From Halomonas eurihalina (lineage in GTDB: Bacteria; Pseudomonadota; Gammaproteobacteria; Pseudomonadales; Halomonadaceae): DNA of 64,000 nucleotides. Shown piece by piece: positions 32,265 through 64,000 of this stretch. How positions within the stretch are numbered: the first letter of the stretch is position 1; each line of letters starts with the position of its first letter. The translations under genes and the position numbers were made by a program. The stretch is taken from contig NZ_VTPU01000011.1 of NCBI RefSeq assembly GCF_008274785.1, positions 1 through 64,000 of the forward strand, read 5' to 3'. Below the pieces are notes generated by a model. That model was not told the origin of the DNA. It saw nothing but the letters and a program-made list of their open reading frames with translations, and ran no database searches.

Positions 32265-32347
32265 AGCGCCGGCATAGCCACAAGGGCTTGCGCAGCAAGC
32301 TCATTTGCGTATAATACGCATCCGTTGTCGCCCACCGGGCCCAACAT

Positions 32348-32424
32348 CGGAGTATAGCTCAGCTTGGTAGAGCGCTGCCTTCGGGAGGCAGAGGTCGTAG
32401 GTTCGAATCCTGCTACTCCGACCA
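32348..32424 (+). tRNA. tRNA-Pro (anticodon CGG)
   Basis: A 77-nt cloverleaf folds by eye: acceptor stem CGGAGTA/TACTCCG (7 bp), anticodon stem CTGCC/GGCAG with loop TTCGGGA (anticodon CGG, reads CCG), TpsiC arm with GGTTCGAATCC, and an encoded CCA. Confidence 0.97.
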
Positions 32425-32435
32425 AGAACATTAGT

Positions 32436-32475
32436 AAAAACGGCCACTTAGCTCATCCGGGCAGTGGCCGTTTTT
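32436..32475 (+). terminator. Terminator after tRNA-Pro
   Basis: A perfect 13-bp stem (AAAAACGGCCACT / AGTGGCCGTTTTT) with a 14-nt loop starts 11 bp after the tRNA. The flanking A- and T-runs make it effective in both directions, so it may also end the transcript of the convergent islet. Confidence 0.92.
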
Positions 32476-32563
32476 CGTTGGTGGGGTTCATGCTGCAAGC
32501 AACATAGGCTCGGAGCACTCAATCAACATGATTGATGGCGACCTCGTCGGGTGTACTGTCCAT

Positions 32564-33529
32564 TTACCCAGTCGCCCGGGATGCTTGATCAAGCTTGGCA
32601 GGCTTCAACACCGCACGGACTGTTGTGACAACCCCCAAAACGACCAACATGGAACCTAACGACTCAAACCACGTCGGGAAACGTTGACTCGCCATCAGTC
32701 CAAACACTGTAGCAAACAATATTTCAACCGCAATCAACTGCCCCGTCAGAACCATTGGCAGCCTTTGAGTCGCGTAATTCCAAGCCCAGGCTCCCCCTAC
32801 AGAAGACAACGTCGCAAGCATTATCGCCCACAATAAAAACCAGGCGAGACTCGAACGATCAACACCAGAAGGAACAGGGTCCACCAGGTCAAATAGCATT
32901 CCCACTGGAATAAATACCAATGTCGCAAAACCAGCGCCCAGCATCATCAGCCCTGTGTACCCCCCCACGCTGAGGCCCGGCTTTCTATCAGTGAACCTCT
33001 GATTGAAAAGGCTGAATAATAGCCAGCACATCACTCCAGCGATACAGAACAGGAACCCAATCGTCGTTCTTTCACCAGACCCATAACCATCCACAAAGAA
33101 AAGTTCGACATTAACAAAAAACAAACCACCCACCGCCATCGCCAAAGGAAGAACCAATTTTCCCCAATGGATGGTGTTTTTATACAGATTACCCAGAACC
33201 ACCATAAATATTGGAACAGTGCCAATAACTGCCGGCGCCAAAACAGGGCCTGCAAAATAAGCACCTCCTACCACTGAAACTATGTACAACAGATACCCCA
33301 GAACCCCCATGGACATAGAGAGAAAAACTTCCATCACATTCATATCGCTCAGCTCTTTGCGACACTTATAAACGAACACCCCTCCAACCACGCCCGCAAC
33401 AACAAACCTTGCCACAATAAAATCATAATTACTGTAGGGACCTACCACATAAGGAGACACAAAATTCAATGCCCAGCTAAAAGTTGAAAACAGAGCTGCA
33501 AAGCAACCTAACAAAAACGAACTATTCAT
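32564..33529 (-). CDS. EamA/DMT-family transporter (islet gene)
   Basis: This 321-residue inner-membrane protein has about ten transmembrane helices in two EamA halves. Such proteins export or import small metabolites such as amino acids, but the substrate is not deducible. Base composition is clearly more A+T-rich than the flanks, and codon choice differs (AAA, TTT, ATA common). It lies 60 bp after the oxygenase gene on the same strand, so the two probably form an operon acquired by transfer beside tRNA-Pro. Confidence 0.8.
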   Translation of the reverse strand: MNSSFLLGCFAALFSTFSWALNFVSPYVVGPYSNYDFIVARFVVAGVVGGVFVYKCRKELSDMNVMEVFLSMSMGVLGYLLYIVSVVGGAYFAGPVLAPAVIGTVPIFMVVLGNLYKNTIHWGKLVLPLAMAVGGLFFVNVELFFVDGYGSGERTTIGFLFCIAGVMCWLLFSLFNQRFTDRKPGLSVGGYTGLMMLGAGFATLVFIPVGMLFDLVDPVPSGVDRSSLAWFLLWAIMLATLSSVGGAWAWNYATQRLPMVLTGQLIAVEILFATVFGLMASQRFPTWFESLGSMLVVLGVVTTVRAVLKPAKLDQASRATG

Positions 33530-33589
33530 ATATCACCAACACCATACAATTCGCCTCCACCCTCCCATCATGACTAATAAGCCATGCTT

Positions 33590-34515
33590 TCACTTAACCA
33601 GAAACCCTGAGAACTGTGAATTTCGAATCAGCTCTCCGTTCTCTATATCAGTAAACCTATCTGCATAGTTCGCCTGATCAGCCCGCCCCCAATTCAGGCC
33701 AAGCCCTAACCCTCCCCCACTTTCCGTTTCTCCAGCCAGCATATCTTTATCGAGCCTAGACTCCGAACCCAGCAATCGAATAGTAACAGCAGACCTCGTT
33801 TTCAACTCCCCTTTCAGCAACACATCGGACCTATGCCATGTCGTCTTTCTGAACAACAGCGCATCCCCCGAATCAAAATCATCCTGATGCTTATACTTTT
33901 CAAACAACTCCGTCAAAAAACCCGGCGTCTTATACACCTCCTTCAGCTTGCATGAAAGCTCATAAACCGACCTTCCTTCTGAAACTTCTTTAGAAAGCAA
34001 GCTTGACAACTGAAAGTTAGCGTAACCAGAGAAGACACTTTCCGGCATGTAGGCCATGCCACCACCTTGACTGTCCCTCCTCACTGGATCCAACGCAATC
34101 CATAAGCTATAACCAGGATCTCGAGGACGGATATACCTAAAGCTAATTGAATCATAGTGCCACTCAAACCCTTGCTTATCAGAAGAAAGCTCAAAACACT
34201 GGGCATCTGTAGCAATTACTGACGAACCAATCATCGAAACCAATATGTTTCTAAAATTCTCTGAACGGTAGAGGCTTTGAAAAAGCTCTGTATCACCAAG
34301 CCCATAGGCCATTCGGTTAAAGGTTCCACCATAGTCACCCCCCTTGACGAAACAGCAAGCCGAGAGGCCTCATCACGCACCCTGCCAACGCCCTCTTCGG
34401 TAAGAAAGGATTTTATTTTAACAAACCCATATTCTCGGAACCTTTCAACATCTTCATTACTCACACTACTCTTAGACACCAACCTATCTACTGATAACTG
34501 TGACACATCCCCCAT
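33590..34515 (-). pseudogene. Fe(II)/2-oxoglutarate oxygenase (phytanoyl-CoA dioxygenase-like), frameshifted
   Basis: Two overlapping frames encode one protein. The N-terminal part (from 34515, after a GGGAGGA ribosome site) reads to SSRG; the C-terminal part continues from there in another frame and holds the HxD iron ligands (EWHYDS) and the distal His (TTWHRSD). The join is at a run of six G on the minus strand (34338-34343). One extra G restores a single frame with ...SSRGGDYGGTFNRMAYG... and a 927-nt, 308-residue gene. It may be a sequencing error, a recent mutation or a phase-variable tract. The substrate is unknown. Confidence 0.75.
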
Positions 34516-34827
34516 ACCATCCTCCCACCATCAAACTGTTGACCATCTCCGCAAAACATCTCTCTATTTACAGAATCACCAATATGCCAGAAATTTTCTT
34601 GACAGAAAGCGACCTAACCTCTCCATAGAGCGACAAACATTATTAACAAATGTAGACACCCAGACTCTGCACAACACTCAAAGGCCATAAAAACATTAGA
34701 TACTTGAAAGTATACGTGAGCCACCAAGCTATGCGCTTGACGAACCATCGCTTGGTCAGGCTTTTCTTGGCCTCAGAATCCTCCAGACTCTATCCTTCCA
34801 AGTAGATGAGTGCGTTTTTGGGAGGCC
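34516..34827. other. A+T-rich intergenic end of the tRNA-Pro islet
   Basis: About 310 bp without a supported gene separates the divergent oxygenase and ADP-ribosylglycohydrolase genes. It shares the low G+C of the islet up to about 34720, then returns to the host-like composition. The islet promoter should lie near its start. I see no integrase remnant and no copy of the tRNA-Pro 3' end that would act as an attachment repeat. Confidence 0.5.
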
Positions 34828-35598
34828 ATGATGCTAGGCGCCATCGCGGGAGATATCATCGGCTCGGTGCACGAAGGAGCAGGCACCAAGCACCGCGAAT
34901 TTCCGCTCTTCACGCCCCAGAGCACCTTTACCGACGATAGCGTGCTCTGTGTGGCGGTGGCAGAAGTACTGCTCTCGGGCGGCAACTTCATCGACGCCTA
35001 CCCCGATTACTTTCACCGCTATCCAGATGCGGGCTTCGGCGGCGGTTTTGCGCGCTGGGCCGCAAGCCGGAGTCGCCACCCCTACTACAGCTGGGGCAAT
35101 GGCTCGGCCATGCGAGTGCCGCCGGTGGGCTTTGCGGCGACATCACTGGAGGAAGCACTGAGCCTGGCCAAGCGAAGCGCCGAGGTGACGCATGACCACC
35201 CCGAAGGCATCCGTGGCGCCCAGGCAGTGGCGGCAGCGATCTTCCTGGCCCGCCAGACCGACGACAAGGCAAGCCTACGACACGAGCTAGAAACGCGCTT
35301 CGGCTACGACCTCTCCCCCCGCCTGGACGAGATTCGCCCCGGCTACGGCTTCGACGTTTCCTGCCAAGGCTCGGTCCCTCCGTCGATCATCGCCTTCCTG
35401 GAAGCCGATGGCGTCGAATCGGCCATCCGCAACGCCATCTCATTGGGCGGCGACGCCGATACCCAGGCCTGCATGGCCGGTGCCATGGCCGAGGCCTTTC
35501 ATGGCGGCCTACCCGAGTCGCTGCGCCACGAGACCCTGGCCCGGCTGCCCAATGACCTGCGCCAAGTCGTGGAAGCCTTCGAGGCGCGCTATCGCTGA
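34828..35598 (+). CDS. ADP-ribosylglycohydrolase family protein
   Basis: The 256-residue product is a DraG/ARH-fold hydrolase. It has the N-terminal metal-binding element GAIAGDIIGS and FTDDSVL, and the C-terminal GGDADTQACMAGAMAEA, whose acidic residues bind the two Mg ions. Members remove ADP-ribose from proteins or small molecules; the target here is unknown and no ADP-ribosyltransferase is adjacent. GGGAGG lies 2 bp before the tandem ATG ATG, so the real start may be the second ATG at 34831. Confidence 0.85.
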   Translation: MMLGAIAGDIIGSVHEGAGTKHREFPLFTPQSTFTDDSVLCVAVAEVLLSGGNFIDAYPDYFHRYPDAGFGGGFARWAASRSRHPYYSWGNGSAMRVPPVGFAATSLEEALSLAKRSAEVTHDHPEGIRGAQAVAAAIFLARQTDDKASLRHELETRFGYDLSPRLDEIRPGYGFDVSCQGSVPPSIIAFLEADGVESAIRNAISLGGDADTQACMAGAMAEAFHGGLPESLRHETLARLPNDLRQVVEAFEARYR

Positions 35599-35684
35599 CC
35601 GCCTGCAGCCACCGCTCATCGAGCCGCAGCTCCCCCTATCAGCCATCAACAGAGGAGCAGGCAGTCAGGACACGAGCTCTTCCA

Positions 35685-37085
35685 TCATGCTCCCTTGCCG
35701 GAGGAGGCCACTGATTGTGCGCGAGCACTGGAAAGATGCACACGGCGCAGTTTGACGTTGTCACCGACCAAGTGCTTCTGCAGATCCTCAAGCGAGACAT
35801 TGCGCGTTTCCGGCATCAGGAATAGCACGAATATCAACTGCAACAGCATCATGACAGCGAAGAAGGCGAACACCGGGCCACCGCTGAAGGTACCCAGCAC
35901 CCAGGGCATGACCAGGGTGATCAAGGCCGCGAAGATCCAGTGAACCGAGCTGCCGAAGGATTGGCCGCGAGCGCGCACGTGGTTGGGGAAAACCTCGGCA
36001 ATGAACACCCAGATCACCGCCCCCTGGCTGATGGCATGAGCGGCAATGAACAGGCCCAGCAGCAGCGGCACCTCGATCCCCCCGAGGGCATCGCTGAAGA
36101 AGGCCCTCGATATCAGCACCAGTGATATCAGATAACCGGCAGAGCCGATGAAAAGCAGGGTGCGCCGCCCGAAACGATCGATCAGGGACATGCCGATCAT
36201 GGTGAAGACCAGGTTGACCAGACCAATGCCGGCCGTCGACAGCAGCGCCGCCTGACTCCCCAGTTCAGCGGCCTCGAGCACCCGCGGCGCATAATAGATG
36301 ATGAAGTTGATGCCGGAGAGCTGATTGAAGAAGGCGATCAGAAAGGCCAGCAGGATCGGCAAGCGATAACGGCGCGAGAAGAACCTTGCATGCGCGGTGC
36401 GCTCCTCGTCCTCGGCAGCGCGGATCGTAGCAATCTCCGCGTCAGTATCCGCCTCGGGGTTGATCAAACGCAGCACGCGAGATGCCTCCGCGACATCGTT
36501 GCGCTTGAGAATCAACCAGCGCGGGCTACGCGGCACTCGCGTAATCATCAGCGTGTAGAGCAGAGCGGGCACCGCCTCGATGCCCAGCATCCAGCGCCAG
36601 GCCCCTTCGGTGATCAGGCTGCCGATGATGTAGTTCGAGATAAACGCCATCAAGATGCCGAAGACGATATTGAACTGATACATGGCGACCAACAGCCCGC
36701 GATGCTTCGGTGGAGCGATCTCGGAGATGTAGGTGGGAGCGGCCACCGAGGAGATGCCCACGCCGATGCCACCGATCAGGCGGAAGATGGCGAACAGTAC
36801 CGGGTCCGAGACCACTGCGGACCCCACGGCGGATACCAGATAGAACACACCAATGATGAGCAGGGTGGCGCGCCGACCGAAGGTATCGGTGGGCCAGTTG
36901 CCGAAGATGGCGCCCAGCACGGTCCCCCACAGGGCCATGGACATGATCAGCAGGCCATGCTGCAGGTCACTTAATCCCCACAGGGCCTGGATAGGCTTGT
37001 CGGCGCCCGAGATCACCGCCGTGTCGAAGCCGAACAGGAAGCCGGCCAGAGCTACGGTGATCGACCATTGCACGATACGCGTCAT
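35685..37085 (-). CDS. Sugar porter family MFS transporter
   Basis: This 466-residue, 12-helix proton symporter of the sugar porter family has the motifs DTFGRRATLL and DRFGRRTLL in loops 2-3 and 8-9, PRSPRWLILKR after helix 6, NQLSGINFIIYY in helix 7 and PETRNVSLEDL at the end. These are diagnostic of XylE/GalP-type carriers. The exact sugar is not deducible. It is transcribed alone, behind two LacI-like operators. Confidence 0.88.
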   Translation of the reverse strand: MTRIVQWSITVALAGFLFGFDTAVISGADKPIQALWGLSDLQHGLLIMSMALWGTVLGAIFGNWPTDTFGRRATLLIIGVFYLVSAVGSAVVSDPVLFAIFRLIGGIGVGISSVAAPTYISEIAPPKHRGLLVAMYQFNIVFGILMAFISNYIIGSLITEGAWRWMLGIEAVPALLYTLMITRVPRSPRWLILKRNDVAEASRVLRLINPEADTDAEIATIRAAEDEERTAHARFFSRRYRLPILLAFLIAFFNQLSGINFIIYYAPRVLEAAELGSQAALLSTAGIGLVNLVFTMIGMSLIDRFGRRTLLFIGSAGYLISLVLISRAFFSDALGGIEVPLLLGLFIAAHAISQGAVIWVFIAEVFPNHVRARGQSFGSSVHWIFAALITLVMPWVLGTFSGGPVFAFFAVMMLLQLIFVLFLMPETRNVSLEDLQKHLVGDNVKLRRVHLSSARAQSVASSGKGA

Positions 37086-37126
37086 TGTCGTTGTCCTCTT
37101 CTTCTCAAGGGCATTGGCGATTCAAG

Positions 37127-37195
37127 TGAATCGATTCATCTAATAACCGAGGAGTCCAACAGTCATTGAACCAAGCCAATAGATGAATCGTGTCA
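37127..37195. promoter_or_regulatory. Pair of LacI-type operators upstream of the sugar porter
   Basis: TGAATCGATTCA (37127-37138) is a perfect 12-bp palindrome with the central CG typical of LacI/GalR operators. A near copy, TGAATCGTGTCA, lies at 37184-37195, 57 bp away. The two are embedded in an 11-bp inverted repeat (CGATTCATCTA / TAGATGAATCG, 37132-37142 and 37180-37190). They lie 42-110 bp before the transporter start. No LacI gene is in the window, so the repressor would be encoded elsewhere. Confidence 0.6.
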
Positions 37196-37302
37196 GCAAA
37201 GAGACATTACAGCAGCCCCGGCCGTGAAGTGCGCTCGAACTTTGGTATGAGAGGCATGCATGAACATGAACGCTGCCTGTCGCCAAGCAACTGGATACGG
37301 TC

Positions 37303-37353
37303 TTGATGATATTTGGCATCAACAACCAGAAAAGCGATGACAAATTTCATCAA
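37303..37353. promoter_or_regulatory. Paired inverted repeats, probable sigma-54 activator sites
   Basis: TTGATG-N8-CATCAA (37303-37322) and GCGATG-N8-CATCAA (37334-37353) are two copies of one dyad with the same 8-bp spacer. Their centres are 31 bp apart, about three helical turns, and lie about 80-110 bp before the -24 element of the following promoter. This is where enhancer-binding proteins bind. The likely protein is the EBP encoded at 40202-41806. Confidence 0.65.
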
Positions 37354-37423
37354 CAGTACTGCCATCAACCACCAAGAAGCGACATTAACGCTAAGTTTCA
37401 ACAAGTTATAAAACACACCGAAG

Positions 37424-37438
37424 TGGCACATCTCTTGC
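37424..37438 (+). promoter_or_regulatory. Sigma-54 promoter of the alcohol dehydrogenase locus
   Basis: TGGCAC-N5-TTGC matches the sigma-54 -24/-12 consensus exactly. It lies 73 bp before the iron alcohol dehydrogenase start, and the same locus encodes a sigma-54 activator. Confidence 0.85.
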
Positions 37439-37511
37439 TACATCGCTCCAGGGACTGGCGCCTATCAATGCGCCGGAAACTGGCCTTCGATCCCAACAAG
37501 AGATAGAGCCC

Positions 37512-38660
37512 ATGCACGTCAGTAGCTTCAAGACCGCCCATCGCCTGATTACCGGCCAACAGGCCTTGCACGAACTTCCCTCTCAGGCCAGCAAGCTTGG
37601 CATGCAAAAGCCACTGCTCGTCACCGACCGTGGCGTACGCGAGTCGGGCGCCCTGGATCTCGTGACGCCCCGAATGAAGGATCTGGATTACGCCATCTAC
37701 GATCGCGTGCCGCCTGAACCGGAAATCGAGATCGTCGAGGAATGCACCCAGGTCTTTCGACATGGAGGACATGACGGCTTGATCGCCGTCGGTGGCGGAA
37801 GCGCCATGGATATCGCAAAAAGCGTTTCCGTTTATGCCCGGCACAACAATACCCTGGAAACCTTGTTCGGCGAGGACAAGGTCGAATCATCGCGAGTGCC
37901 TCTGATCGCCCTTCCTACAACCGCCGGCACGGGGTCCGAAGTCACCAACATCGCCATCCTCGCCGACAACCAGCAAGGCACGAAGCGAGGCATCGTCAGC
38001 GACGACTTGCTGCCCGACGTTGCCCTGGTGGCCCCGGAAATGACGTTGAGTTGCCCACGTTCGGTGACCGCCGCCAGTGGTGTAGATGCCCTCGTTCACG
38101 CCATCGAGGCTTACCTTTCGAACTTCGCCAGCCCCCTCACCGATGCACTGGCGCTCAAGGCTATGACGCTGATCGTCAGGGCCCTTCCCAAGGCATTCGC
38201 CAACCCGAACAACCTTGCCGCACGCGAGGACATGGCCACCGGCAGCCTGATGGCAGGGCTGGCCTTCGGCAACGCCGGCGTCGGTGCCGTACATGCCCTG
38301 GCCTACCCTCTGGGTGGCCGTTACCACCTGGCCCACGGCGTGAGTAACGCCTTGTTATTGCCGCATGTCATGGCCTGGAACAAGCTGGCCTGCGTCGAAC
38401 GCTTCCAGGATATCGCTCACGCCTTCGGCGAACCGTGCCAAGGCTTGTCTGCCACCCAGATCGCCGACAACGTCATCGACCGATTGCATCGATTGTGCCG
38501 TGACGTCGAGATTCCCACGCAACTGCGGACATTCGATATCCCCGAATCCGCCCTTCCCGAACTGGCCGAAGCCGCCAGCAAGGTCGAGCGCCTTCTGCGT
38601 AACAATCCTCGCGTCCTGAGTCGTGACGATATCGAGCAGATCTACCGCGCTGCCTATTAG
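37512..38660 (+). CDS. Iron-containing alcohol dehydrogenase
   Basis: This 382-residue group III metal-dependent alcohol dehydrogenase has the NAD-binding GGGSAMDIAKS near residue 95, the PTTAGTGSEVT loop near 135, and metal ligands in ALVHAIEAYLS, GAVHALAYPLGGRYHLAHG. The natural alcohol is not deducible. It is first in a sigma-54 transcript with the permease 43 bp downstream. Confidence 0.88.
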   Translation: MHVSSFKTAHRLITGQQALHELPSQASKLGMQKPLLVTDRGVRESGALDLVTPRMKDLDYAIYDRVPPEPEIEIVEECTQVFRHGGHDGLIAVGGGSAMDIAKSVSVYARHNNTLETLFGEDKVESSRVPLIALPTTAGTGSEVTNIAILADNQQGTKRGIVSDDLLPDVALVAPEMTLSCPRSVTAASGVDALVHAIEAYLSNFASPLTDALALKAMTLIVRALPKAFANPNNLAAREDMATGSLMAGLAFGNAGVGAVHALAYPLGGRYHLAHGVSNALLLPHVMAWNKLACVERFQDIAHAFGEPCQGLSATQIADNVIDRLHRLCRDVEIPTQLRTFDIPESALPELAEAASKVERLLRNNPRVLSRDDIEQIYRAAY

Positions 38661-55364: not shown

Positions 55365-55646
55365 TTATTCGTCGTGGCTCACTTGTAGCGTCGATTTCTT
55401 GGACGCGCCATGACTGGCCTGCCAGGAAAGCCGAATATCCAGGCGGTGATAGTCATCTTCCTTGCGAACCGTCACCTTGAGATTGATCAGCCCCTTGGGA
55501 GTCAGCCGGATCTCGCCGTCGCCGTCCGAGAACGACAGCACTCCCTTGGCCAGTCCCTTGGTGATGGCCTTGAGGATCTCCTGGGCACCCTTGATGCTCT
55601 GTAGCGATTCGTGCCGGAAGAGGTTCTTCTCGGGCTTCATGGACAT
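55365..55646 (-). CDS. Amphi-Trp domain protein (GAK system)
   Basis: This 93-residue protein is a single amphi-Trp domain: a helix near the N-terminus (QEILKAITKGLAKG), four short strands with ISFSDGDGEIRL-like spacing, and the conserved Trp in RLDIRLSWQ. The family is one of the namesakes of the GAK system and has no known activity. It is last in the minus-strand cluster; its start overlaps the phosphoesterase by 10 bp. It could be the substrate or carrier for the modifying enzymes upstream (inference). Confidence 0.75.
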   Translation of the reverse strand: MSMKPEKNLFRHESLQSIKGAQEILKAITKGLAKGVLSFSDGDGEIRLTPKGLINLKVTVRKEDDYHRLDIRLSWQASHGASKKSTLQVSHDE

Positions 55647-57022
55647 CCTGCCTTGTGCTTGGTGGCCGAGCGCCGGGAAGCTCCGCGGCCGTCGAGATAG
55701 GTTTCCGGCTCGAAAATCTTGGCATGCGGGTAGTCGTTGCTGATGCCGACCACCTTGCCTGTCGGTTGGATGATCGTCACGCCCACGCCATGCCCCTCGA
55801 GGCCCTCCTTGCGTCGGGAGTTGCGGTCCAGGGTGATATCGCCCTCGATATGCAGCATGCCGCGACGGATCATCAGCCGCTGGCCGGCGGTGAGATTGAG
55901 ATGGCCGTGTACGACAGCGTGAATGCCCTCGCGATAAACGTGGTCGACACCGCGCTCGGTAAGGGGAAAGTCGACCTTGCGGTACTTGGTTCGCAGCGTG
56001 TTGGCCAGAGGCCCATAGTAGAACGCGAAGGGGTCATCGACCACCATCGTGGTGAAGCACCGGTTCAGCGCCGCGATCCCTTCGTTCTCGATCCGCCGGG
56101 CGATACTGTCATCCAGCCCCGCGTGCACGAAAAGAAAGGAACCTTCCCGATGCACGAGCTGCATCGACTCGAAGAACCAGGCGAACTCCCCCTCCGGCCG
56201 GAGAAAGAGCTCACGCAGCTTGCATGCCGTCGCATAGACCTGGCGCAACGTCAGCCCCGCCCGCTCGCAGGACGCCTCGAAGCTCGACACTTTCTTGCGT
56301 AACCTGGCGAGCTCCTTGTCGATGGCCTTGTCGGACATCTGCCCCCGCGCCATCGATGGAAAAGCGTCGAACCAGTCATCGCCGGGCATGAGGCGACGCC
56401 GACAGGCCTTCTTGCCGGGCACATCCGCCAGCGGGTCTTCCTGCCATGCCAGATACTCGGCGTAGACCTCTTTGATCAACGGGATAGCCTTGTTACCCAT
56501 GCGCGCGAAGAGATGTTCGGTGCGCGGAGACGGCTCATGTTCAAGGGCCATCAGCCCCATCAACAGGCGCATATCATGATTGCCCGCCAGCAGCGTCACC
56601 TGGGCGCCGCTGTCCATCAGCCGACGCAGGCTGCGCAGCAGTGTCAGGTTACTTGGCCCCTTGTCCAGGCAGTCTCCGCCGATGACGAAAGCGCCTTTCC
56701 GCCCCCGTTTGGTCAGCTTGATGTCATCGAGCCCCGGGCCTGTCTTCTTCACCCCACCGGAGGCCACCAGGGAGCCAACGAAGGCCTCGGCATCGGCATG
56801 AGGGTCGGAGATAAAATAGATAGGGCGGTCAGGCCAGGTCCAGGGGCGATGGGCAACCGCTCGACGCAGCAGTCGGGAGACCACTTCCGGCGAGCTGCCT
56901 CCGCGCGCCTGGGCGTTGCGTCCGCCCGGCACCCAGGGCTCCACCGTCGTCGGCAGCCCCTGTATCACTCGCGATACTCCCTTGTAGCGAGGAATGTCGA
57001 TGTGCACCTGACCACTCGCCAT
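55637..57022 (-). CDS. Calcineurin-like metallophosphoesterase
   Basis: The 461-residue product has the binuclear metal motifs in order: SDPHADAEAF (DxH), GGDCLDKGPSN, GNHDMRL, VHAGLDDS and VVHGHLN. It is longer than typical Ser/Thr phosphatases because of an insert between GNHD and HAG (about 180-300, helical, basic). A 119-bp gap, the only one in the minus-strand cluster, separates it from the histidine phosphatase gene. The start follows AGGAG. Its substrate may be a phosphoprotein or a nucleotide-like compound. Confidence 0.82.
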   Translation of the reverse strand: MASGQVHIDIPRYKGVSRVIQGLPTTVEPWVPGGRNAQARGGSSPEVVSRLLRRAVAHRPWTWPDRPIYFISDPHADAEAFVGSLVASGGVKKTGPGLDDIKLTKRGRKGAFVIGGDCLDKGPSNLTLLRSLRRLMDSGAQVTLLAGNHDMRLLMGLMALEHEPSPRTEHLFARMGNKAIPLIKEVYAEYLAWQEDPLADVPGKKACRRRLMPGDDWFDAFPSMARGQMSDKAIDKELARLRKKVSSFEASCERAGLTLRQVYATACKLRELFLRPEGEFAWFFESMQLVHREGSFLFVHAGLDDSIARRIENEGIAALNRCFTTMVVDDPFAFYYGPLANTLRTKYRKVDFPLTERGVDHVYREGIHAVVHGHLNLTAGQRLMIRRGMLHIEGDITLDRNSRRKEGLEGHGVGVTIIQPTGKVVGISNDYPHAKIFEPETYLDGRGASRRSATKHKAGCP

Positions 57023-57141
57023 GCGCCGGCTCCTGGTGGGGGAAGAAATACGGCATAGCGTATGACACCAAGGTGACACCCCCGTGACAACACATGCCCT
57101 ACCGGCCGCTCGGCCAAGCGCAGGCACTTTTCGGACAGTGC

Positions 57142-57852
57142 CTAGTCATGGTGGCCTTCGCCGCTCTGCCGACGCTTCCAGTGCCCCCCGATGTGTCGCC
57201 AGCGCCCGTCCGGGAAGCGCTCCAGGTAGACCGGGGCAGCGTGGTACATGCTCAACCGGGCGATGTCGTCGAAGGCCAGTACCCCAAGCCGGTAAGCAGC
57301 ATGACGAAAGGCGGCCCCGTGGCCGACAAACAGCTTCGCCGTATCGCCTCGAACCTCGGCCGCCAGGGCGGCCATGCGAGACTCGAGATGATCGGCGACG
57401 CGCTCGCCGGCCTCCATCAGCGACTCCGCCCCCGGCAGAGGCAACCTAAAATGGCTGCTCGCCTTCCAGTTCGCGGGTAACGCGTCGCAGCGCGGGTCCG
57501 CCTCGACCGCCCGCACAATCTGCTCGAGAGTCAGGTTCGCCGCGCTCCCCAGCCCTCGCTCGGCCAGCGCCCCGAAGTCCTCGATGCGCAGCGGGAACCA
57601 GCAGTTGGCGAGCCCTTCGCGCAACCGCTCGGCGGTCTGCCAGGCCCGCAACAGCTCGGAGGTGTCGATCGTCTCGGCCAGCCGCCAACCTTCGGCTTCG
57701 AGCATCGCCCCTAACTCCCAAGCCGCCTTATCGGCTTGGGTCCGGCCTCGCTCGGTGAGCGGAAAAGGCTGGTGGGCACTGGGCGTATCGGGCAACTGAT
57801 GGTAGTCACCATGCCGAACGAGTACCGCGATAGTGCGCGGTGCCGAGCTCAC
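57142..57852 (-). CDS. Histidine phosphatase family protein
   Basis: This 236-residue phosphoglycerate-mutase-like hydrolase has the nucleophile motif LVRHGDY at residues 11-17 and the second His in FVGHGAAFRH (about 178). It could cleave a phosphomonoester or phosphohistidine. It is coupled to the preceding fusion gene by a 4-bp overlap. A hairpin (AGGCAC / GTGCCT, 57122-57143) lies just past its stop. Confidence 0.82.
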   Translation of the reverse strand: MSSAPRTIAVLVRHGDYHQLPDTPSAHQPFPLTERGRTQADKAAWELGAMLEAEGWRLAETIDTSELLRAWQTAERLREGLANCWFPLRIEDFGALAERGLGSAANLTLEQIVRAVEADPRCDALPANWKASSHFRLPLPGAESLMEAGERVADHLESRMAALAAEVRGDTAKLFVGHGAAFRHAAYRLGVLAFDDIARLSMYHAAPVYLERFPDGRWRHIGGHWKRRQSGEGHHD

Positions 57853-58826
57853 TCCGTGCTCCCGGTGGCAAGGCGCGCCGACAGCGCCCGAATCTCATGG
57901 GCGAGAGCGTCGCTCGCAACGAGCTCGGCAGCCTGTTCGGGCCCGACCCAACGACGGCTCCGCTGCGGCTCTTCGCGGGCGTGCTCGGGCTGCTCGCTGT
58001 CGACGCGCATGGCAAACAGCTCGACGTTGCAGGTCGCCCCCCACTTGGCCTGACGATAGCGAGCCGGCGCGACGGCAGAGATGGTCCCGCTGATGCCAGC
58101 CTCCTCAGCGGCCTCCTTGAGTGCTGAATCCTCGGGACTCAGCCCCGGCTCGACGATGCCCTTGGGCAGGCTCCAATGCCGATTGCCGCTCGATCCGATC
58201 AGCAGTATCTCCAGGACACCGTCATGCCAGCGATAGGGCAACACGGCGGACTGCGTGTAGTAGTAGGCCGGCCGCTCCCGGCGCTCGGAGCCATCCGGAA
58301 AGGGATAGGGAAAGCCCTCCGGCAACGTCCGGGCCCGGCGGATCTCGATCAGTCGCGCGGCGCCAGCGTCCAACATCGACCACTCACCGTCGAGGGCAAA
58401 ATGCGCCAGCGCGGCGGTGGGCAGCAACTTGCCGTCATCGGGCACCGGGGGCGGTTCGGGTAACAACCAATCCAGAAACGCCTCGAGGCCGGGATTGTGG
58501 CCAACCACCATGAGGCGCGTCACCGCCTCGGGGCAACGCGACACCACAGCGGCCAACGCCTCGGAGCCGGCATCGAGGAGGCTCGGCTCGATCACCACGT
58601 CGGCCTGCGTCAGCCCCATGGCCTTGGCGCATTTCTCGGCAGTGGCCCGGGCACGTTCAGCGGGCGAAGCCAGGATGCGGTCAGGCACCCGGTCCTGCTC
58701 GGCGAGCCAGGCCCCCACGCGCTGCGCGGCCAGTTTGCCGCGCTTCTTCAGCGGTCGCTCGACATCGCTCACCGGCTTCGACCAATCGGACTTCCCGTGG
58801 CGCAGCACCAGCAGCTCTCGAGACAT
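57849..58826 (-). CDS. SixA-type histidine phosphatase fused to a Nudix hydrolase
   Basis: Residues 1-165 form a SixA-like phosphatase (LVLRHGKSDW; VVGHNPGLE). Residues 185-325 form a Nudix domain with box GIVEPGLSPEDSALKEAAEEAG, in which the first Glu of the consensus is Leu and the Arg is Lys. The layout resembles mycobacterial MutT1 with the domains reversed. The Nudix half recalls the diphosphoinositol-polyphosphate type (SLPKG). Both activities would remove phosphate groups, so the protein may act in two steps on one pyrophosphate-bearing compound. Confidence 0.85.
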   Translation of the reverse strand: MSRELLVLRHGKSDWSKPVSDVERPLKKRGKLAAQRVGAWLAEQDRVPDRILASPAERARATAEKCAKAMGLTQADVVIEPSLLDAGSEALAAVVSRCPEAVTRLMVVGHNPGLEAFLDWLLPEPPPVPDDGKLLPTAALAHFALDGEWSMLDAGAARLIEIRRARTLPEGFPYPFPDGSERRERPAYYYTQSAVLPYRWHDGVLEILLIGSSGNRHWSLPKGIVEPGLSPEDSALKEAAEEAGISGTISAVAPARYRQAKWGATCNVELFAMRVDSEQPEHAREEPQRSRRWVGPEQAAELVASDALAHEIRALSARLATGSTE

Positions 58827-58828
58827 GG

Positions 58829-59929
58829 CTAGCCCTCCATCAAGGGATAAAGGTGCCCCTCGACCAGAGCGGAAAAATCGATACCGCCCGTCACCTCATA
58901 AACCGGAATCCCCTCGAGTACCGCCAGATAGGCCGCCTCGTCGAGCGGTTCCCCATCGGCCTCGAAGCGACCGTTGGCATGCTGATAAAAGGGGCCGGGT
59001 GATTTCATGATAGCCGCCAGCAGATCCCGGCGCGGTTCCAGATCCACCGCCGTGACCCGCGTCGGGCTCGCGTCGTCCCGACGCCAGTTGAGGACAACGA
59101 AAGCCGCCAGGGGCGCCTCGGCGATGAGACGCTGCGGCCCATAGAAGGTGGCGATGGGCACGTCGTGCTTCTCTTCCAACTCCCAGAGTTCGGCCGACGG
59201 CAAGGCTCGCAGCACTTCCCGACGTTCGGCCGGGATCAAGGCCTCGAGCCGAGAATTGTGCAACACCGTCCCCGGGTTGATGCGCGGCTGCTTGGGTACG
59301 CCTGCGGCCCGCACGCCGCTGCCCTGGCGCTTGAGAAACAACCGATCATTGGTCAGAAAGGCGGTCCCGGGATGCTCCAGGGCCCGCAGCATGGCCGTGG
59401 ACTTGCCGCCCCCCGAAAAGCCGGCGATGGCCAGCGCGCGGCCCTCATGCACTAGAGCCGCAGCGTGACAGATCCGCCAGTCCGCCTGCTGAAGGTGATT
59501 CATGTACTGGGCCAGAATGAAATTCACCACCTGATTGACGTTGGCACGACAGGGGCCAGCCGCGATGCGCTGCGTTGCGCTCTGCAAAAAGACCATACCG
59601 GTGCGAACCTTGCGCACCAGCCGGCCGCCCGGGAGATCGAGGATGCTGTCCTTGCGCCCGGTCTTGCCGGCCTCCCGGGACCAGTCGAGGAAATCCACCT
59701 TCAGCTCGGGGGCCTCCCGCTCGATGGCGATCACCTCGAGATCCGCTGTCTCACCCGGTACCAGGCAGTGCGCGAAATAGTCGCCCAAGGTATCGAGCAG
59801 CTCGGCCGAGTTCGAGCGTACGGCCAGGCGGGCCTGCCCCATGGCCAGAACCAAAGTCTGGTCGATGAGCTCGGTGACGCCGACCAGCGTGCGGGCCAAG
59901 GCACCGGGACTTTCGGTAGCAGCGCTCAT
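58829..59929 (-). CDS. HprK-related kinase B
   Basis: This 366-residue protein has a P-loop GFSGGGKST near residue 170 in a fold like the C-terminal half of HPr kinase/phosphorylase, with LTNDRLFL afterwards. The N-terminal 130 residues are specific to this family. The HprK-related B group is a named GAK-system component; no HPr partner is present, so its target is probably another protein or metabolite. Its start overlaps the ATP-grasp gene by 4 bp. Confidence 0.85.
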   Translation of the reverse strand: MSAATESPGALARTLVGVTELIDQTLVLAMGQARLAVRSNSAELLDTLGDYFAHCLVPGETADLEVIAIEREAPELKVDFLDWSREAGKTGRKDSILDLPGGRLVRKVRTGMVFLQSATQRIAAGPCRANVNQVVNFILAQYMNHLQQADWRICHAAALVHEGRALAIAGFSGGGKSTAMLRALEHPGTAFLTNDRLFLKRQGSGVRAAGVPKQPRINPGTVLHNSRLEALIPAERREVLRALPSAELWELEEKHDVPIATFYGPQRLIAEAPLAAFVVLNWRRDDASPTRVTAVDLEPRRDLLAAIMKSPGPFYQHANGRFEADGEPLDEAAYLAVLEGIPVYEVTGGIDFSALVEGHLYPLMEG

Positions 59930-60813
59930 AGCTCGCTCAGCACGTGGTCGAGGTAGGCGCCGGCGGCATCGATTCCCGCTCCTTCCAGAGCGCCGCGGAA
60001 ACCGCCAAAGGCAGACACCTCGAAGACAACCGGGCCGTCCGAGGTCTCAGCCACATCCACGGTGGTGAAGTCCAGATCGAAGGGCGCCTGGGCCCGGGTG
60101 GCCAGCTCGATGAGCTCGGCCGACGGCGTATAGGCCTCGTAGCGCCCGCCGCTGTGGATGGTGGTGTTCCAGGTATCGCCGCTCTGGGGTACCCGGGCAT
60201 AGGTGCCCAGGTAGCGCCCGCCGGCGAACACCATGCCCAGGTCGCGGCCGGGCAGCTCCACCCGGCGCTGCAGATACATCATCGGATTGTCAGCCCGAAA
60301 GGCTGCCACCTCGCGGCGCAGGGCCTCGGGCGACTGATCGGCGGAAATCACGCACATGCCACGCGCCTTGGTCGAGAACAGCGGCTTGAAGACCGCCTCG
60401 CCGAAGCGCTGGACCGCCTGGCAGGCGCTGTCCAGGTCTTCGGTGACCAGGGTCTCCGGCATCGGAATGCCCGCATTGCGCAGGGTAACGGTACAGCTCA
60501 ACCGATTGATCAGCCGCAGCATCGTCTCCGCCCTGCTGAACACCCTGACGCCCCGGGCCTCGGCCACCCGCAGTAATTCGAGGCGGTCCAAGCTGGTGGG
60601 GCTGTACTCGGCGCTGATCTTCTTGACGATCAAGGCATCCAGCTCGCCGAGGTCCTGCCCCCGATGCTCGAGGCGGCCCGAGGTCAGGTCGAGGCAGGTC
60701 TCATGAAGGTCAATCACCGCACGAAACCCGGTGCGCGCTTCGATGGCATCCGCCAACACCTCGGTGGACCACTTGCCGGGAATGCCCACCACGCCGATCT
60801 TGGGGTTAGTCAA
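59926..60813 (-). CDS. GAK-system ATP-grasp enzyme
   Basis: This 295-residue RimK-like ATP-grasp protein has a pre-ATP-grasp domain (KIGVVGIPGKWSTEVLADA), the ATP loop FKPLFSTKARGM (about 140-155), and Mg ligands in VDVAETSDGPVVFEVSAFGGFR. Such enzymes join a carboxylate to an amine. The start is TTG, preceded by GAAGGAG; there is no ATG alternative. It overlaps the kinase gene upstream by 8 bp. Confidence 0.85.
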   Translation of the reverse strand: MTNPKIGVVGIPGKWSTEVLADAIEARTGFRAVIDLHETCLDLTSGRLEHRGQDLGELDALIVKKISAEYSPTSLDRLELLRVAEARGVRVFSRAETMLRLINRLSCTVTLRNAGIPMPETLVTEDLDSACQAVQRFGEAVFKPLFSTKARGMCVISADQSPEALRREVAAFRADNPMMYLQRRVELPGRDLGMVFAGGRYLGTYARVPQSGDTWNTTIHSGGRYEAYTPSAELIELATRAQAPFDLDFTTVDVAETSDGPVVFEVSAFGGFRGALEGAGIDAAGAYLDHVLSEL

Positions 60814-62446
60814 CGAAAATCTCCTTCATGGGAATACGGAAGCGGTGCGCCTTCTGCGGATCGGCCGCCAGCACCAGCTCAAGCAAATAACGGGCCCGCA
60901 GGAACATGCTGTTGGCCAAGGCATTGTCGAGGATGAAACGCGTGGAGGTGGCGAAGGAACGCGCCAACCCCAGCGCCAGCCTCAATTCGAAGGTCACATC
61001 GTCCTGAGATATCGCATAACGACGCGCCATCCGGTAGAAGTCCTGGGCCAGTTGCATGATCCGTCGGCGCAGCGGGGCATCCTTGATCTGCAGGCGATAG
61101 TTGGAAACCATGAATACCGAGACATCCTGCACGTAATCCATGTAGCTGGAGCGATGAAGGTCGATGAAATTGATCCGCCGCTCGAGTGGATCGTAGATGA
61201 TGTTATCGACATTGAAGTCGCCATGGATGTACACCGAAAAGGGCGCTTCGAGGCCGGCTTCCTTGTCCCTGGCTCGCTCGACCAGGGTGTCGAAAGCAAG
61301 CAGATCGACGCCGCATACCGTTGCACCACTATGTTTGAATTCGGGATGAATCTTGTACACCTCGCCGAGACGTTTCTCGAGCTGCTGCATATGGTTGGCC
61401 GCAACCGGGATGTCGGTATGAGTCTCGCGCCAAACCGACTTCAGCGTCCGGGTCAGCCGTTTCAGCGCCTCGTCGAGTAACTCGGAAGACTCGTTGAGCA
61501 GGATCTGCTCGAAGGTGAAACCCGGCATGTGTTCAATGAGCAGCGCCGCCGACTGGCCGCGTTTCTTGTAGGAGAGAATCTTGGGCGCCAGACCGGGATA
61601 TATCTCGTGCCAGCTCTCAACTCCCTGGCGTTCTTCCTTGACCTTGCGCTTGAGGCCATCCTTGAAGATGGCCACATAGTCATCATCCTGGCCCGTCGAG
61701 ATCCCCGAAATACTACTGCCCGAACGGGTCTCGGCGATGGGCGCCATGCTGAAGTCCTCGTTCTCGCTGTCGGTCAAGTCCTCCACCAGCGATTGCAGCG
61801 AACAATAGCGCTCGAAGTTGACCGACTGCCCCAGATTGGCCGAGATGATCACCTCGCTGAGATGCAGCAGAACCTCACCCATCTGACGAATGGCCTGGGC
61901 CACGAAGAGCGCCCGGGTGAGATCCTCTGTGCGATTATGACGCCTCTTGAGCGCCGTGATGCAGTGACTCACCCGGCGCCGGACATCCTTCTGCAGGCTC
62001 GCCTCCAGTCGACCTATCTGCAGGGCCCGCTGAGTATTGCTGCCAGCGACCGCCTCTTCGACCTTGGCCACGCCAGAGCGCACCTGAGCCAGCATGGGAG
62101 GAAAGGTTTCCGGATCCAGTGCCGCCAGATCGTCCATGTCGACCAGTTGATGGATGCACTCGCGACTCAACTCGGTGAGACGATCAAGGTCCGTTGATAC
62201 CAGCTCCAGACTGCGCAGCAGACGGCGCCTGGCTTCCCCGGTCTTCTTGCGGGAAAGCCGCCTGATGCAATCGGCATGGATGCGCATCTTGAGGTTGCGG
62301 GCATAACCATCGCGCTCCGCAACACGCCGGGCGATGGCAGCCGTGGGGCTGGTAAAAAAGGCTTGCAGGTTGGCCAGTTGCGAATCCACCTCGACACACA
62401 GGAAACGCAGATTGTCCTGAATGCTCTCAGGGATTCGATTGGTCAT
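60806..62446 (-). CDS. Helical (PhoU-like) domain fused to APH-type phosphotransferase
   Basis: In this 546-residue protein, residues 1-250 are predicted helical and PhoU-like, and residues 270-546 are an aminoglycoside phosphotransferase/choline-kinase fold with the catalytic loop IHGDFNVDN and the metal motif NFIDLHR. An ATP-site Lys may lie in LAPKILSYKKRGQS. It probably phosphorylates a small hydroxyl-bearing compound. A PhoU-like half would let it sense phosphate or contact a partner (inference). It overlaps the Nudix gene by 20 bp. Confidence 0.8.
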   Translation of the reverse strand: MTNRIPESIQDNLRFLCVEVDSQLANLQAFFTSPTAAIARRVAERDGYARNLKMRIHADCIRRLSRKKTGEARRRLLRSLELVSTDLDRLTELSRECIHQLVDMDDLAALDPETFPPMLAQVRSGVAKVEEAVAGSNTQRALQIGRLEASLQKDVRRRVSHCITALKRRHNRTEDLTRALFVAQAIRQMGEVLLHLSEVIISANLGQSVNFERYCSLQSLVEDLTDSENEDFSMAPIAETRSGSSISGISTGQDDDYVAIFKDGLKRKVKEERQGVESWHEIYPGLAPKILSYKKRGQSAALLIEHMPGFTFEQILLNESSELLDEALKRLTRTLKSVWRETHTDIPVAANHMQQLEKRLGEVYKIHPEFKHSGATVCGVDLLAFDTLVERARDKEAGLEAPFSVYIHGDFNVDNIIYDPLERRINFIDLHRSSYMDYVQDVSVFMVSNYRLQIKDAPLRRRIMQLAQDFYRMARRYAISQDDVTFELRLALGLARSFATSTRFILDNALANSMFLRARYLLELVLAADPQKAHRFRIPMKEIFVD

Positions 62447-62912
62447 GGAAAACGCCTGTGTAAAGGGGCTCTGCCGTCCGTTCTCGGGATTCGATCAGGC
62501 GTGGCAGTTGGAGAACCAGATAGGCGGGCGAAAAGGCCAATCGGACGAGGTCGCGGACCTCGACCCATCGTACTTCGAGTTGGCGCTTGTCGGGGCTCGG
62601 GCCGTTATGCGGGGCATAGTCATCCGGCACGGCGCAGCGAAAGATGAAATCCACCTGATGGCGACGGGTAGCGGGCTCGGTACGCTTGAGCTTGAAGTAG
62701 TCGCAGACCTGAATCAGCGCAGGCGCCAGCACATCAGTACCGATCTCCTCGCGACACTCGCGCTGCAAGGCCGCCTCCAGGGGCTCCCCGGTTTCCTGGC
62801 CGCCACCGGGCAGCGCGTAGACATCATCCTCCTTCTGCAACAGCAGGATGTGGTCTTCGCGCAGAATCAGCGCTCTGGCCGAATTGCGCACACCGGGAAT
62901 CAGCTCGGCCAT
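62427..62912 (-). CDS. Nudix hydrolase
   Basis: This 161-residue single-domain Nudix hydrolase has the complete box GGGQETGEPLEAALQRECREEIG near residues 36-58. It is first in the minus-strand cluster, divergent from the CofD-like gene by 160 bp. It would cleave a nucleoside diphosphate linked to another moiety. Its long overlap with the next gene suggests coupled expression. Confidence 0.88.
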   Translation of the reverse strand: MAELIPGVRNSARALILREDHILLLQKEDDVYALPGGGQETGEPLEAALQRECREEIGTDVLAPALIQVCDYFKLKRTEPATRRHQVDFIFRCAVPDDYAPHNGPSPDKRQLEVRWVEVRDLVRLAFSPAYLVLQLPRLIESRERTAEPLYTGVFHDQSNP

Positions 62913-63072
62913 GCTCGGATCACTCGAAGTTTCAACGCTACTTCAAGCATGCCACACCCCGCATGAAATTTCCGTGAAACCAGGCCCCGTCCTTACCGCC
63001 GGGAAGGCGACAAGACGACCAAAAGCAGGCACTCTTGGCTAGGCGTTCCAGACACAAAGCCAGGAAAACGAC

Positions 63073-64000
63073 ATGGTCGACGTTCGCGTGACCCGCACCG
63101 CGCGGGTACCCGACCCTCTACGGGTCCAGCGCTACCACAAGGCCCCGGAACTCGGGCCGAAGCTGCTCTTCTTCAGCGGCGGTTCGGCCCTCAACGGCAT
63201 ATCTCGACGGCTACAGCACTATACCCACAACTCCATTCACCTGGTGACGCCCTTCGACTCAGGCGGCAGCTCCGCCAAGCTGCGCAAGGCCTTCGGTATG
63301 CCGGCCATCGGCGATCTGCGCAGTCGCCTGATGGCACTCGCGGACGACTCCATCCTGGGCCACCCCGAGGTCTGCCGACTATTCACCTACCGGCTGCCAG
63401 AGGAAGCCGAGCCGGATGCCCTGCGGGCCACCCTCGACACGCTGGCGCGCGGGCAGCATCCTCTGACCGGCGATATTTCCAATCCGATGCGCCGCTTGAT
63501 CTGCAACCAGCTCGGCTTCTTCCTCGAGGCAATGCCCGACGACTTCGACCTGCGCGGCGCCAGCATCGGCAACCTGATTCTGGCGGGCGGCTACCTGAAC
63601 AATCATCAGCAGCTCGACCCGATCACCTTCCTGTTCTCCAAGCTGGTCCACGTCCGCGGCACCGTCCGCGCCATCATCGACCAGGATTATCACCTGGCGG
63701 CCACCTTGACGGACGGCTGCCAAGTACTGGGCCAGCACCGCATCACCGGCAAGGAAGTTGCGCCGCTGGTCACGCCTATCGCCAGACTCGAACTCTCGGC
63801 CGACCGGGATACCTACGAGCCCGTTACCGCAAAGCTGCACAAGAGAAACCAGCGCCTGATCGCCTCCGCCGAGCTGATCTGCTACCCGCCGGGCAGCTTC
63901 TACTCCAGCCTGTTGGCCAACCTGCTGCCCCACGGCGTCGGCCGGGCCATCCACGCCAACCGCTGTCCCAAGGTCTTCATTCCCAATTCAAGCCCCGACC
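63073..64000 (+). CDS. GAK-system CofD-like protein (partial, window edge)
   Basis: The frame starts at ATG 63073 (GGAAAA site before it) and is still open at the last base, with at least 309 codons. It shows the CofD/YvcK pattern: FFSGGSALNGISRRL, then PFDSGGSSAKLRKAFGMPAIGDLRSRL, and ASIGNLILAGGYLNN. CofD transfers a phospholactate group between GTP-activated and acceptor compounds, whereas YvcK-like proteins bind UDP-sugars. The GAK group has no known reaction. The C-terminus lies outside the window. Confidence 0.87.
   Translation, partial: MVDVRVTRTARVPDPLRVQRYHKAPELGPKLLFFSGGSALNGISRRLQHYTHNSIHLVTPFDSGGSSAKLRKAFGMPAIGDLRSRLMALADDSILGHPEVCRLFTYRLPEEAEPDALRATLDTLARGQHPLTGDISNPMRRLICNQLGFFLEAMPDDFDLRGASIGNLILAGGYLNNHQQLDPITFLFSKLVHVRGTVRAIIDQDYHLAATLTDGCQVLGQHRITGKEVAPLVTPIARLELSADRDTYEPVTAKLHKRNQRLIASAELICYPPGSFYSSLLANLLPHGVGRAIHANRCPKVFIPNSSPD

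Follow-up and report, generated by a model that had tools for sequence, protein, structure and literature searches.

A conserved GAK operon of Halomonas eurihalina with predicted PHO boxes and a possible part in phosphate physiology

The GAK system is a group of protein families named in NCBIfam (TIGR04354 to TIGR04358), of which we take XXXCH (TIGR04358) to be a defining part; no function for these families was found in the open-access literature of PubMed Central. PhoU works with PstB and PhoR, HprK phosphorylates HPr, and the repeat unit of a PHO box spans 11 base pairs (bp). In the eukaryotic inositol pyrophosphate cycle, the kinase-plus-phosphatase PPIP5K is accompanied by a Nudix protein, DIPP. 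In the available portions of the published reports, the most conserved motif of the Escherichia coli PHO box is given as CTGTCAT, bound as direct repeats (PMC4415409), SixA of E. coli is described as dephosphorylating the phosphocarrier NPr (PMC7948535), and CHAD domains are said to bind polyphosphate specifically (PMC6537752). We describe herein a GAK locus in a 64,000-nucleotide stretch of Halomonas eurihalina DNA, hereafter the window (bases 1-64000 of contig NZ_VTPU01000011.1, C2 in our numbering; the genome comprises 3.84 Mb in 60 contigs). Its genes are designated N (Nudix), U (PhoU plus kinase), G (ATP-grasp), K (HprK-B), S (SixA-Nudix), H and M (phosphatases), T (amphi-Trp) and C (CofD-like). 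With roughly even confidence, we propose that the GAK operon is a mobile accessory operon, with a core of U-G-K-H-M-T and with N, S and C optional, that works in phosphate physiology as a make-and-erase module. By sequence, the set is kept as a unit, its catalytic residues are retained, and predicted PHO boxes lie upstream of M here and upstream of U in some other lineages.

The locus contains the following features.

55365..55646, minus strand: T, amphi-Trp protein of 93 amino acids (TIGR04354, 64 bits, cut-off 31)
55637..57022, minus strand: M, calcineurin/PPP-like metallophosphoesterase of about 461 amino acids (PF00149, 29.8 bits; start taken from relatives)
57062..57090, minus strand: three predicted tandem PHO-box units, TTGTCAC-N4-GTGTCAC-N4-GTGTCAT, 11-bp period, 39 bp upstream of the ATG of M
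57142..57852, minus strand: H, histidine phosphatase of branch 1 (His_Phos_1), 236 amino acids (PF00300, 59.6 bits)
57849..58826, minus strand: S, SixA domain fused to a Nudix domain, 325 amino acids (TIGR00249, 59.9 bits, below the cut-off of 74.5)
58829..59929, minus strand: K, HprK-related kinase B, 366 amino acids, Walker A motif GFSGGGKST (TIGR04355, 350 bits, cut-off 200)
59926..60813, minus strand: G, GAK ATP-grasp enzyme, RimK-like, 295 amino acids (TIGR04356, 448 bits, cut-off 300)
60806..62446, minus strand: U, PhoU (about 1-207) plus an APH/methylthioribose-kinase-like kinase (about 208-546), 546 amino acids (PhoU and APH families; model and fold matches)
62427..62912, minus strand: N, Nudix hydrolase of 161 amino acids (PF00293, 60.4 bits)
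63073..64000, plus strand, continuing to contig position 64266: C, CofD-like GAK protein of 397 amino acids (TIGR04357, 455 bits for the part in the window, cut-off 340)

With four GAK families (TIGR04354, TIGR04355, TIGR04356 and TIGR04357) above their NCBI cut-offs in one cluster, the locus is, judged by sequence, a member of the named GAK system, as the first-pass annotation had supposed from motifs. That annotation had described eight minus-strand genes, which in order of transcription read N-U-G-K-S-H-M-T, and a divergent CofD-like gene on the plus strand; all nine were recovered in place, and the end of the CofD gene, expected past position 64000, was located at contig position 64266. 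The tight packing that it reported, with overlaps of 4 to 20 bp, holds at five junctions (T/M 10 bp, H/S 4, K/G 4, G/U 8, U/N 20) and does not extend to the others, because S and K are separated by a 2-bp gap and H and M by a spacer. This spacer measures 14 bp to the start of the longest open reading frame (ORF) of M (GTG 57127) and 119 bp to the ATG at 57022; the latter, which aligns with the starts of relatives, is most likely the start of M. The suggested look beyond the window for an XXXCH gene yielded none: the model matched nothing in this genome or in genomes G426 and G427, and since it also matched none of 14 control genomes, and so has no positive control, absence of the gene does not follow.

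The composition of the cluster was read, with profiles built from the window proteins, in 94 loci: the window, 13 from 398 genomes of the same phylum and, from named genomes, the 80 best of at least 493 confirmed relatives. G passed the family cut-off in 13 of the 398 genomes, the window's own included, with one more partial match. The sample leans to close relatives, and by record title 15 of those 80 belong to Roseibium or Labrenzia. Presence was counted in the 61 loci whose outermost GAK genes are flanked on either side by more than 1.5 kb of sequence (33 of the 94 were excluded): U, G, K and M were each present in all 61, and H and T in 60, H being missing in locus L040 and T in L126; N, S and C were found in 41, 35 and 25, respectively. 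The order U-G-K-H-M-T was kept in 57 of the 61, where H and M were allowed to lie about 0.3 or 0.6 kb apart. Among the excluded loci, L114 shows no K. In some gammaproteobacterial metagenome-assembled genomes (MAGs) the genes run U-G-H-M with K displaced by about 2 kb, and on two Rhodobacterales plasmids the NCBI annotation gives the same neighbours. The core is complete, in the permuted order H-M-T-T-U-G-K-C, in G531, a planctomycete and a second genome of the Rhodopirellula phylum; the amphi-Trp genes of this operon form a tandem pair (L153 7258-7995). Because of this constant co-occurrence, which includes the permuted planctomycete operon, H and M are members of the cluster and not bystanders. 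The first-pass annotation had placed four phosphate-removing enzymes alongside the GAK families, and the comparison bears this out, with M and H constant and with S and N frequent. C is optional and separable from the cluster: of 38 GAK-positive genomes chosen because the visible part of the cluster has no C, 23 carry the gene at another place, and none was shown in the other 15, some of which are incomplete MAGs. The 18 stand-alone C genes had no shared phosphate context that we could see.

A gene of about 190 codons (e.g., L076:5967-6554), Nudix-like by eye and with no Pfam match, lies just before the displaced K in L073, L076, L082 and L126, and after T in L071. The copy at L089 8363-14000, from the Lamellibrachia barhami endosymbiont, has U broken across two ORFs and an interrupted S, which may reflect decay or misassembly.

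By sequence and model, U is a full PhoU fold fused to a small-molecule-type kinase with an intact catalytic motif. Its model (predicted local distance difference test, pLDDT, 88.7; predicted template modelling score, pTM, 0.62) superposes residues 1-207 on the PhoU structure 1t72 with Z 24.8 and a root-mean-square deviation (rmsd) of 2.2 A over 205 aligned residues. Residues from about 208 to 546 match methylthioribose kinases (Z 20-21.5, rmsd 4.3-5.1 A), aminoglycoside kinases scoring below these, and a sequence profile finds both PhoU (E 4.6e-10, 1xwm) and APH (E 1.1e-4). No report of a PhoU-kinase fusion was found in the portions of the open-access literature available to us.

Residue conservation was counted after proteins outside 75-140% of the length of the window protein had been dropped, which kept T from 68 of the 75 loci with a hit, M from 81 of 84, H from 84 of 87, S from 55 of 60, K from 85 of 90, G from 93 of 94, U from 88 of 93, N from 55 of 59 and C from 36 of 39. 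The catalytic roles of the residues below, the RimK metal site included, are those known in their families. H408, D410, N415 and D429 of the U kinase are kept in 88/88, the Walker A lysine of K (K176) in 85/85, and R13, H14, R69, E98 and H178 of H in 84/84. The metal ligands of M (longest-ORF numbering) are equally constant, with D108, H110, D152, N183 and H335 in 81/81 and H409 in 80/81. K143, D253 and E265 of G are present in 93/93. The Asp, Glu, Asn triad of the RimK-type metal site is not complete in G: D253 and E265 are kept, and the Asn, found in the EVN motif of the three RimK and LysX-type chains aligned, is replaced by Ser267 in 93/93, so that EVSAFGG stands for EVNASPG. In the window the SixA half of S has its catalytic R9, H10 and H110, kept in 49, 47 and 46 of 55 family members, while the Nudix glutamates are kept in 54-55 of 55; in the PDB, the best matches of the Nudix half are Ap4A hydrolases, and DIPP1 is matched as well. 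Used as single sequences, M and H had no PDB match at E 0.001. A cycle that builds and erases a phosphorylated product, proposed in the first-pass annotation, would fit this retention of catalytic residues in the kinase, the ATP-grasp enzyme and the phosphatases, together with GAK membership and the constancy of H and M.

A possible link to phosphate came from the whole-genome search for an E. coli-type pattern, TGTCAY-N5-TGTCAY-N5-TGTCAY, with up to two mismatches. The sole perfect three-unit match in the genome lies at 57062-57089 on the minus strand, between H and M, and would be expected about 0.001 times by chance with equal bases. The other match (C53:210684, one mismatch) lies between a PstS-family gene and PstC, in a pst operon that also has PstA, PstB and PhoU; a second pst locus (C11, PstS and PstC) has a two-unit site at its PstS gene, and no PHO site was shown at a third gene of the binding-protein family (C60). 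A perfect predicted site before M, with the motif also carried by both pst operons examined, is consistent with membership in the Pho regulon. Related loci point the same way. At least two in-phase GTCAY units within 170 bp of the end of H occur in 6 of 83 loci compared with 2 of 1660 shuffles, and three such units in 4 of 83 compared with none of the shuffles; the six loci are those of the window, Halomonas halmophila, Cobetia amphilecti and three strains of Onishia taeanensis, and Halomonas almeriensis has a single unit there.

Sites were also sought before each gene with a two-unit test (at least 12 of 14 matches, observed against shuffled), which superseded, along with the promoter comparison below, an earlier simple-shuffle test (15/89 against 3/445). 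Two-unit sites were clearest before U (8/89 against 0/445). Elsewhere the counts were 2/59 against 0/295 for N, 3/39 against 2/195 for C (the same three sites as U), 1/90 against 1/450 for K, 1/75 against 2/375 for T, 0/87 against 3/435 for H, 0/60 against 1/300 for S and 0/94 against 3/470 for G. With up to two mismatches, 7 of 88 first-gene promoters carried a site compared with 6 of 711 other promoters of the same loci (Fisher p 1.5e-4), the latter figure being 11/716 before four GAK promoters seen from a divergent neighbour and the leader of L045 were removed; with up to three mismatches the counts were 15/88 and 51/716 (p 0.003). Perfect two-unit sites numbered seven, from six loci, in 714 kb of cluster DNA, and one in 910 kb of flanks. 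That lone flank site, which its position identifies as the one in L045, lies 41 bp upstream of a CHAD gene, which is followed by ParA and then by U-G-K-S-H-M. The lineages with PHO boxes are fewer than the loci, because some loci are close kin (e.g., L040 and L041, both of genus g14).

Genes for the handling of phosphate and polyphosphate also lie beside the cluster in other genomes. The neighbour profiles derive from the very GAK flanks that were then counted, and Pfam served to identify example proteins. Around the 94 loci we counted CHAD at 11, ParA at 11, a Na/Pi-cotransporter at 13, PPK1 at 5 and a further histidine phosphatase at 6; none of the five was found in 34 control loci, which are shorter (295 kb in total, 16 with only 1.5-kb flanks, so that flank lengths are not equal). 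Taken together, CHAD, PPK1 or the cotransporter is near 20 of 94 GAK loci compared with 0 of 34 controls. CHAD occurs in seven arrangements, e.g., in the M-T interval (L047), before ParA and U (L045) and before N in Rhodopirellula (L125), which argue for repeated association, though several of the loci are from related MAGs. Genome-wide, PPK1 was found in 40 of 42 GAK-positive genomes compared with 72 of 112 below the G cut-off (p 3e-5, a statistic that ignores kinship); the latter count is 79/120 less eight GAK-positive genomes, seven of them with PPK1. A gene for a ParA-type ATPase accompanies CHAD in 10 of the 11 cases (L045, L047, L063, L070, L071, L073, L080, L096, L106 and L122), and a positioning system for polyphosphate granules is one possible function of the pair. 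Membrane proteins of the CNNM/CorC type lie near 11 of the 94 clusters (L063, L070, L071, L073, L075, L078, L082, L084, L086, L089 and L096).

The operon also seems to travel. G of the window is 56% identical to that of a genome of the same family (G050), as compared with 69% for the alphaproteobacterium Labrenzia sp. 011 and 66% for Rhodopirellula, and relatives of G occur in 5 of 72,556 plasmid records (E up to 1e-20). Since the same-family protein is more distant than those of an alphaproteobacterium and of Rhodopirellula, and since plasmids carry relatives, the comparison points to a horizontally mobile operon that has moved as a unit. The closest G among the matches listed in named genomes is that of Halomonas halmophila (84% identical); K was found in 2 of 119 genomes of the phylum of Rhodopirellula (G426), one of them being the starting genome; and none of 46 candidate viral contigs held a relative of G. 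Many of the hosts are marine, saline or vent organisms, going by record names.

Several observations weigh against the reading proposed above. A backwards control pattern also gave one genome match at up to two mismatches, so that this class as a whole is not rare. Besides the window, the loci with three units after H are three strains of Onishia taeanensis, and, being strains of one species, they count once. Over all loci the two-unit score before M is less clear (7/84 against 6/420), and the best site before N in the window has four mismatches, which is the chance level. Boxes of the E. coli type precede the first gene in a minority of loci (the 7 of 88 given above), and in 15 of 17 alphaproteobacterial loci not even TGTCAC-N5-TGT is present at that place. 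The CHAD, PPK1 and cotransporter neighbours are concentrated in related MAGs, and the Fisher tests ignore kinship; two of the 42 GAK-positive genomes, G014 and G403, show no PPK1. A genome-wide enrichment of CHAD was looked for and rejected, as 7 of 14 GAK-positive genomes have it compared with 195 of 398 overall. Finally, in L117, which is outside the 61 loci because its U runs off the contig, neither H nor M stands between S and T.

If the operon is nonetheless a make-and-erase module of phosphate physiology, the following scheme may be envisaged. Falling phosphate would lead PhoB to raise expression of the operon, or at least of its M-T end in Halomonas relatives. U, whose PhoU part would be the input domain, and K would phosphorylate a substrate, and G would join or activate that same substrate at the expense of ATP. 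H, M and the Nudix proteins would take the product apart, reversing the kinases and G, while T may serve as a small binding partner. How the building and the erasing arm balance would then determine the amount of a phosphorylated compound or carrier, and this in turn would adjust phosphate or polyphosphate stores.

T is where this scheme departs from the first-pass annotation, which had suggested a phosphorylated molecule or protein tag, possibly on the amphi-Trp protein. In such a tag cycle K (as an HprK-like enzyme) and U would phosphorylate T, and the SixA-like and other phosphatases would strip the phosphate again. T is small (93 amino acids) and present in 60 of 61 loci, its F-x-H-x-S motif has H12 in 67/68 and S14 in 66/68, and the activity of E. 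coli SixA on NPr, in the portion of the report cited above, offers a precedent. Yet these candidate acceptors are lost in L040 (H12 to Tyr, S14 to Ala) and, for S14, in L041 (to Ala), which weakens the suggestion; L041 retains U, G, K, H and M, and L040 is the weaker case, because H is lost there as well and the residue loss could belong to wider decay. Nor does the tag cycle fit a SixA-Nudix gene found in just 35 of 61 loci, or a 35-sequence profile of K that, at E up to 0.1, matched no HprK chain in the PDB and retrieved only ABC-transporter P-loops and one superoxide dismutase chain. The model of T (one helix and four strands, pLDDT 81) likewise had no clear match of any kind in the PDB, the HPr fold included (best Foldseek E 0.85, best Z 2.5). 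S14, just before helix 18-34, could act as a helix cap, and the remaining conserved positions of T (F, G, P, L and W) look structural. T seems better read as a binding partner than as a protein that must accept phosphate. We regard the tag cycle as quite unlikely.

Other readings share parts of this evidence. The enzymes might salvage or clean up nucleotide-like or sugar phosphates during phosphate shortage, the hydrolases freeing phosphate and the kinases priming the scaffold. The PHO boxes would suit this, as would the best match of the S Nudix half to Ap4A hydrolases, the weak likeness of M to symmetrical Ap4A hydrolase (24 bits against a cut-off of 176) and the resemblance of the U kinase half to methylthioribose and aminoglycoside kinases; salvage would seem to have no obvious need, however, for a RimK-like ATP-grasp enzyme and a P-loop kinase in 61/61 loci each, or for a PhoU domain on the kinase, and we deem it unlikely. 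Synthesis of an F420- or methanopterin-like cofactor is suggested by the similarity of C to CofD (Pfam CofD, 112 bits), of G to MptN/CofF (MptN model, 143 bits, cut-off 350) and of H to alpha-ribazole phosphatase (CobC-type model, 32 bits, cut-off 163). As C was not found in 15 of 38 GAK-positive genomes, as the EVN Asn of G is Ser in 93/93, and as a cofactor pathway does not call for PhoU or PHO boxes, this seems very unlikely. That unrelated genes merely sit together by chance might be argued from the frequent absence of N, S and C (present in 41, 35 and 25 of 61) and from L117; co-occurrence of the six core genes in 60-61 of 61 loci leads us to reject it for the core, and no member of these families lay next to any of 16 other RimK-like genes or within 18 regions surrounding stand-alone C genes; its probability is next to nil. 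At the speculative end, and with little confidence, the operon might be read as a bacterial counterpart of the inositol pyrophosphate cycle, in which the PhoU-gated kinase and the altered ATP-grasp enzyme build a diffusible, highly phosphorylated messenger of phosphate status, H, the PPP-like M and Nudix enzymes degrade it, and CHAD proteins are its targets in some lineages.

Two further features of the window lie outside these considerations. A dispersed repeat of about 32 bp occupies 57114-57148 in the H-M interval and matches 11 further sites in the genome (E < 0.001). A tRNA-Pro gene (32348-32424) borders a stretch within 32001-38000 whose G+C (0.51-0.58) is below that of its surroundings (about 0.64); this stretch may have been inserted as an island.

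Three things come on top of the first-pass annotation: a predicted PHO box within the operon, the complete PhoU fold, and neighbouring genes for polyphosphate and phosphate transport. As far as the open-access literature reaches, novelty lies in the extended core, the PhoU-kinase and the connection to the Pho regulon. The GAK families thereby gain a fixed, wider gene set, a likely regulator through the PHO boxes, a probable input domain in PhoU and a phosphate and polyphosphate setting, and the function of the operon becomes directly testable. If the cycle is real, it would form an extra layer of phosphate control beside Pst, PhoR and PhoU.

Among known systems, the eukaryotic inositol pyrophosphate cycle is alike in outline only, with an ATP-grasp enzyme, a histidine phosphatase, a Nudix protein and a link to phosphate control; here G is RimK-like and H belongs to branch 1, and no membership is claimed. 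G resembles the RimK, LysX and MptN ATP-grasp ligases in its full-length match (to MptN and RimK) and in D253 and E265, and differs by the invariant Ser in place of the EVN Asn. U shares with the APH/methylthioribose kinase family its fold and its catalytic H-G-D, N and D motif; its fusion to PhoU sets it apart, and nothing marks it as a resistance gene. With PhoU it shares the fold of residues 1-207, and it differs in its C-terminal kinase, in its place outside the pst operons and in its low identity to PhoU structures (8-16%). The closest relative is the GAK system itself, four of whose named families are present here above their cut-offs. Its names cover G, K, T and C, and presumably XXXCH; in the loci compared here, XXXCH was not found and C is separable from the cluster, whereas U, H and M are as constant as G, K and T.

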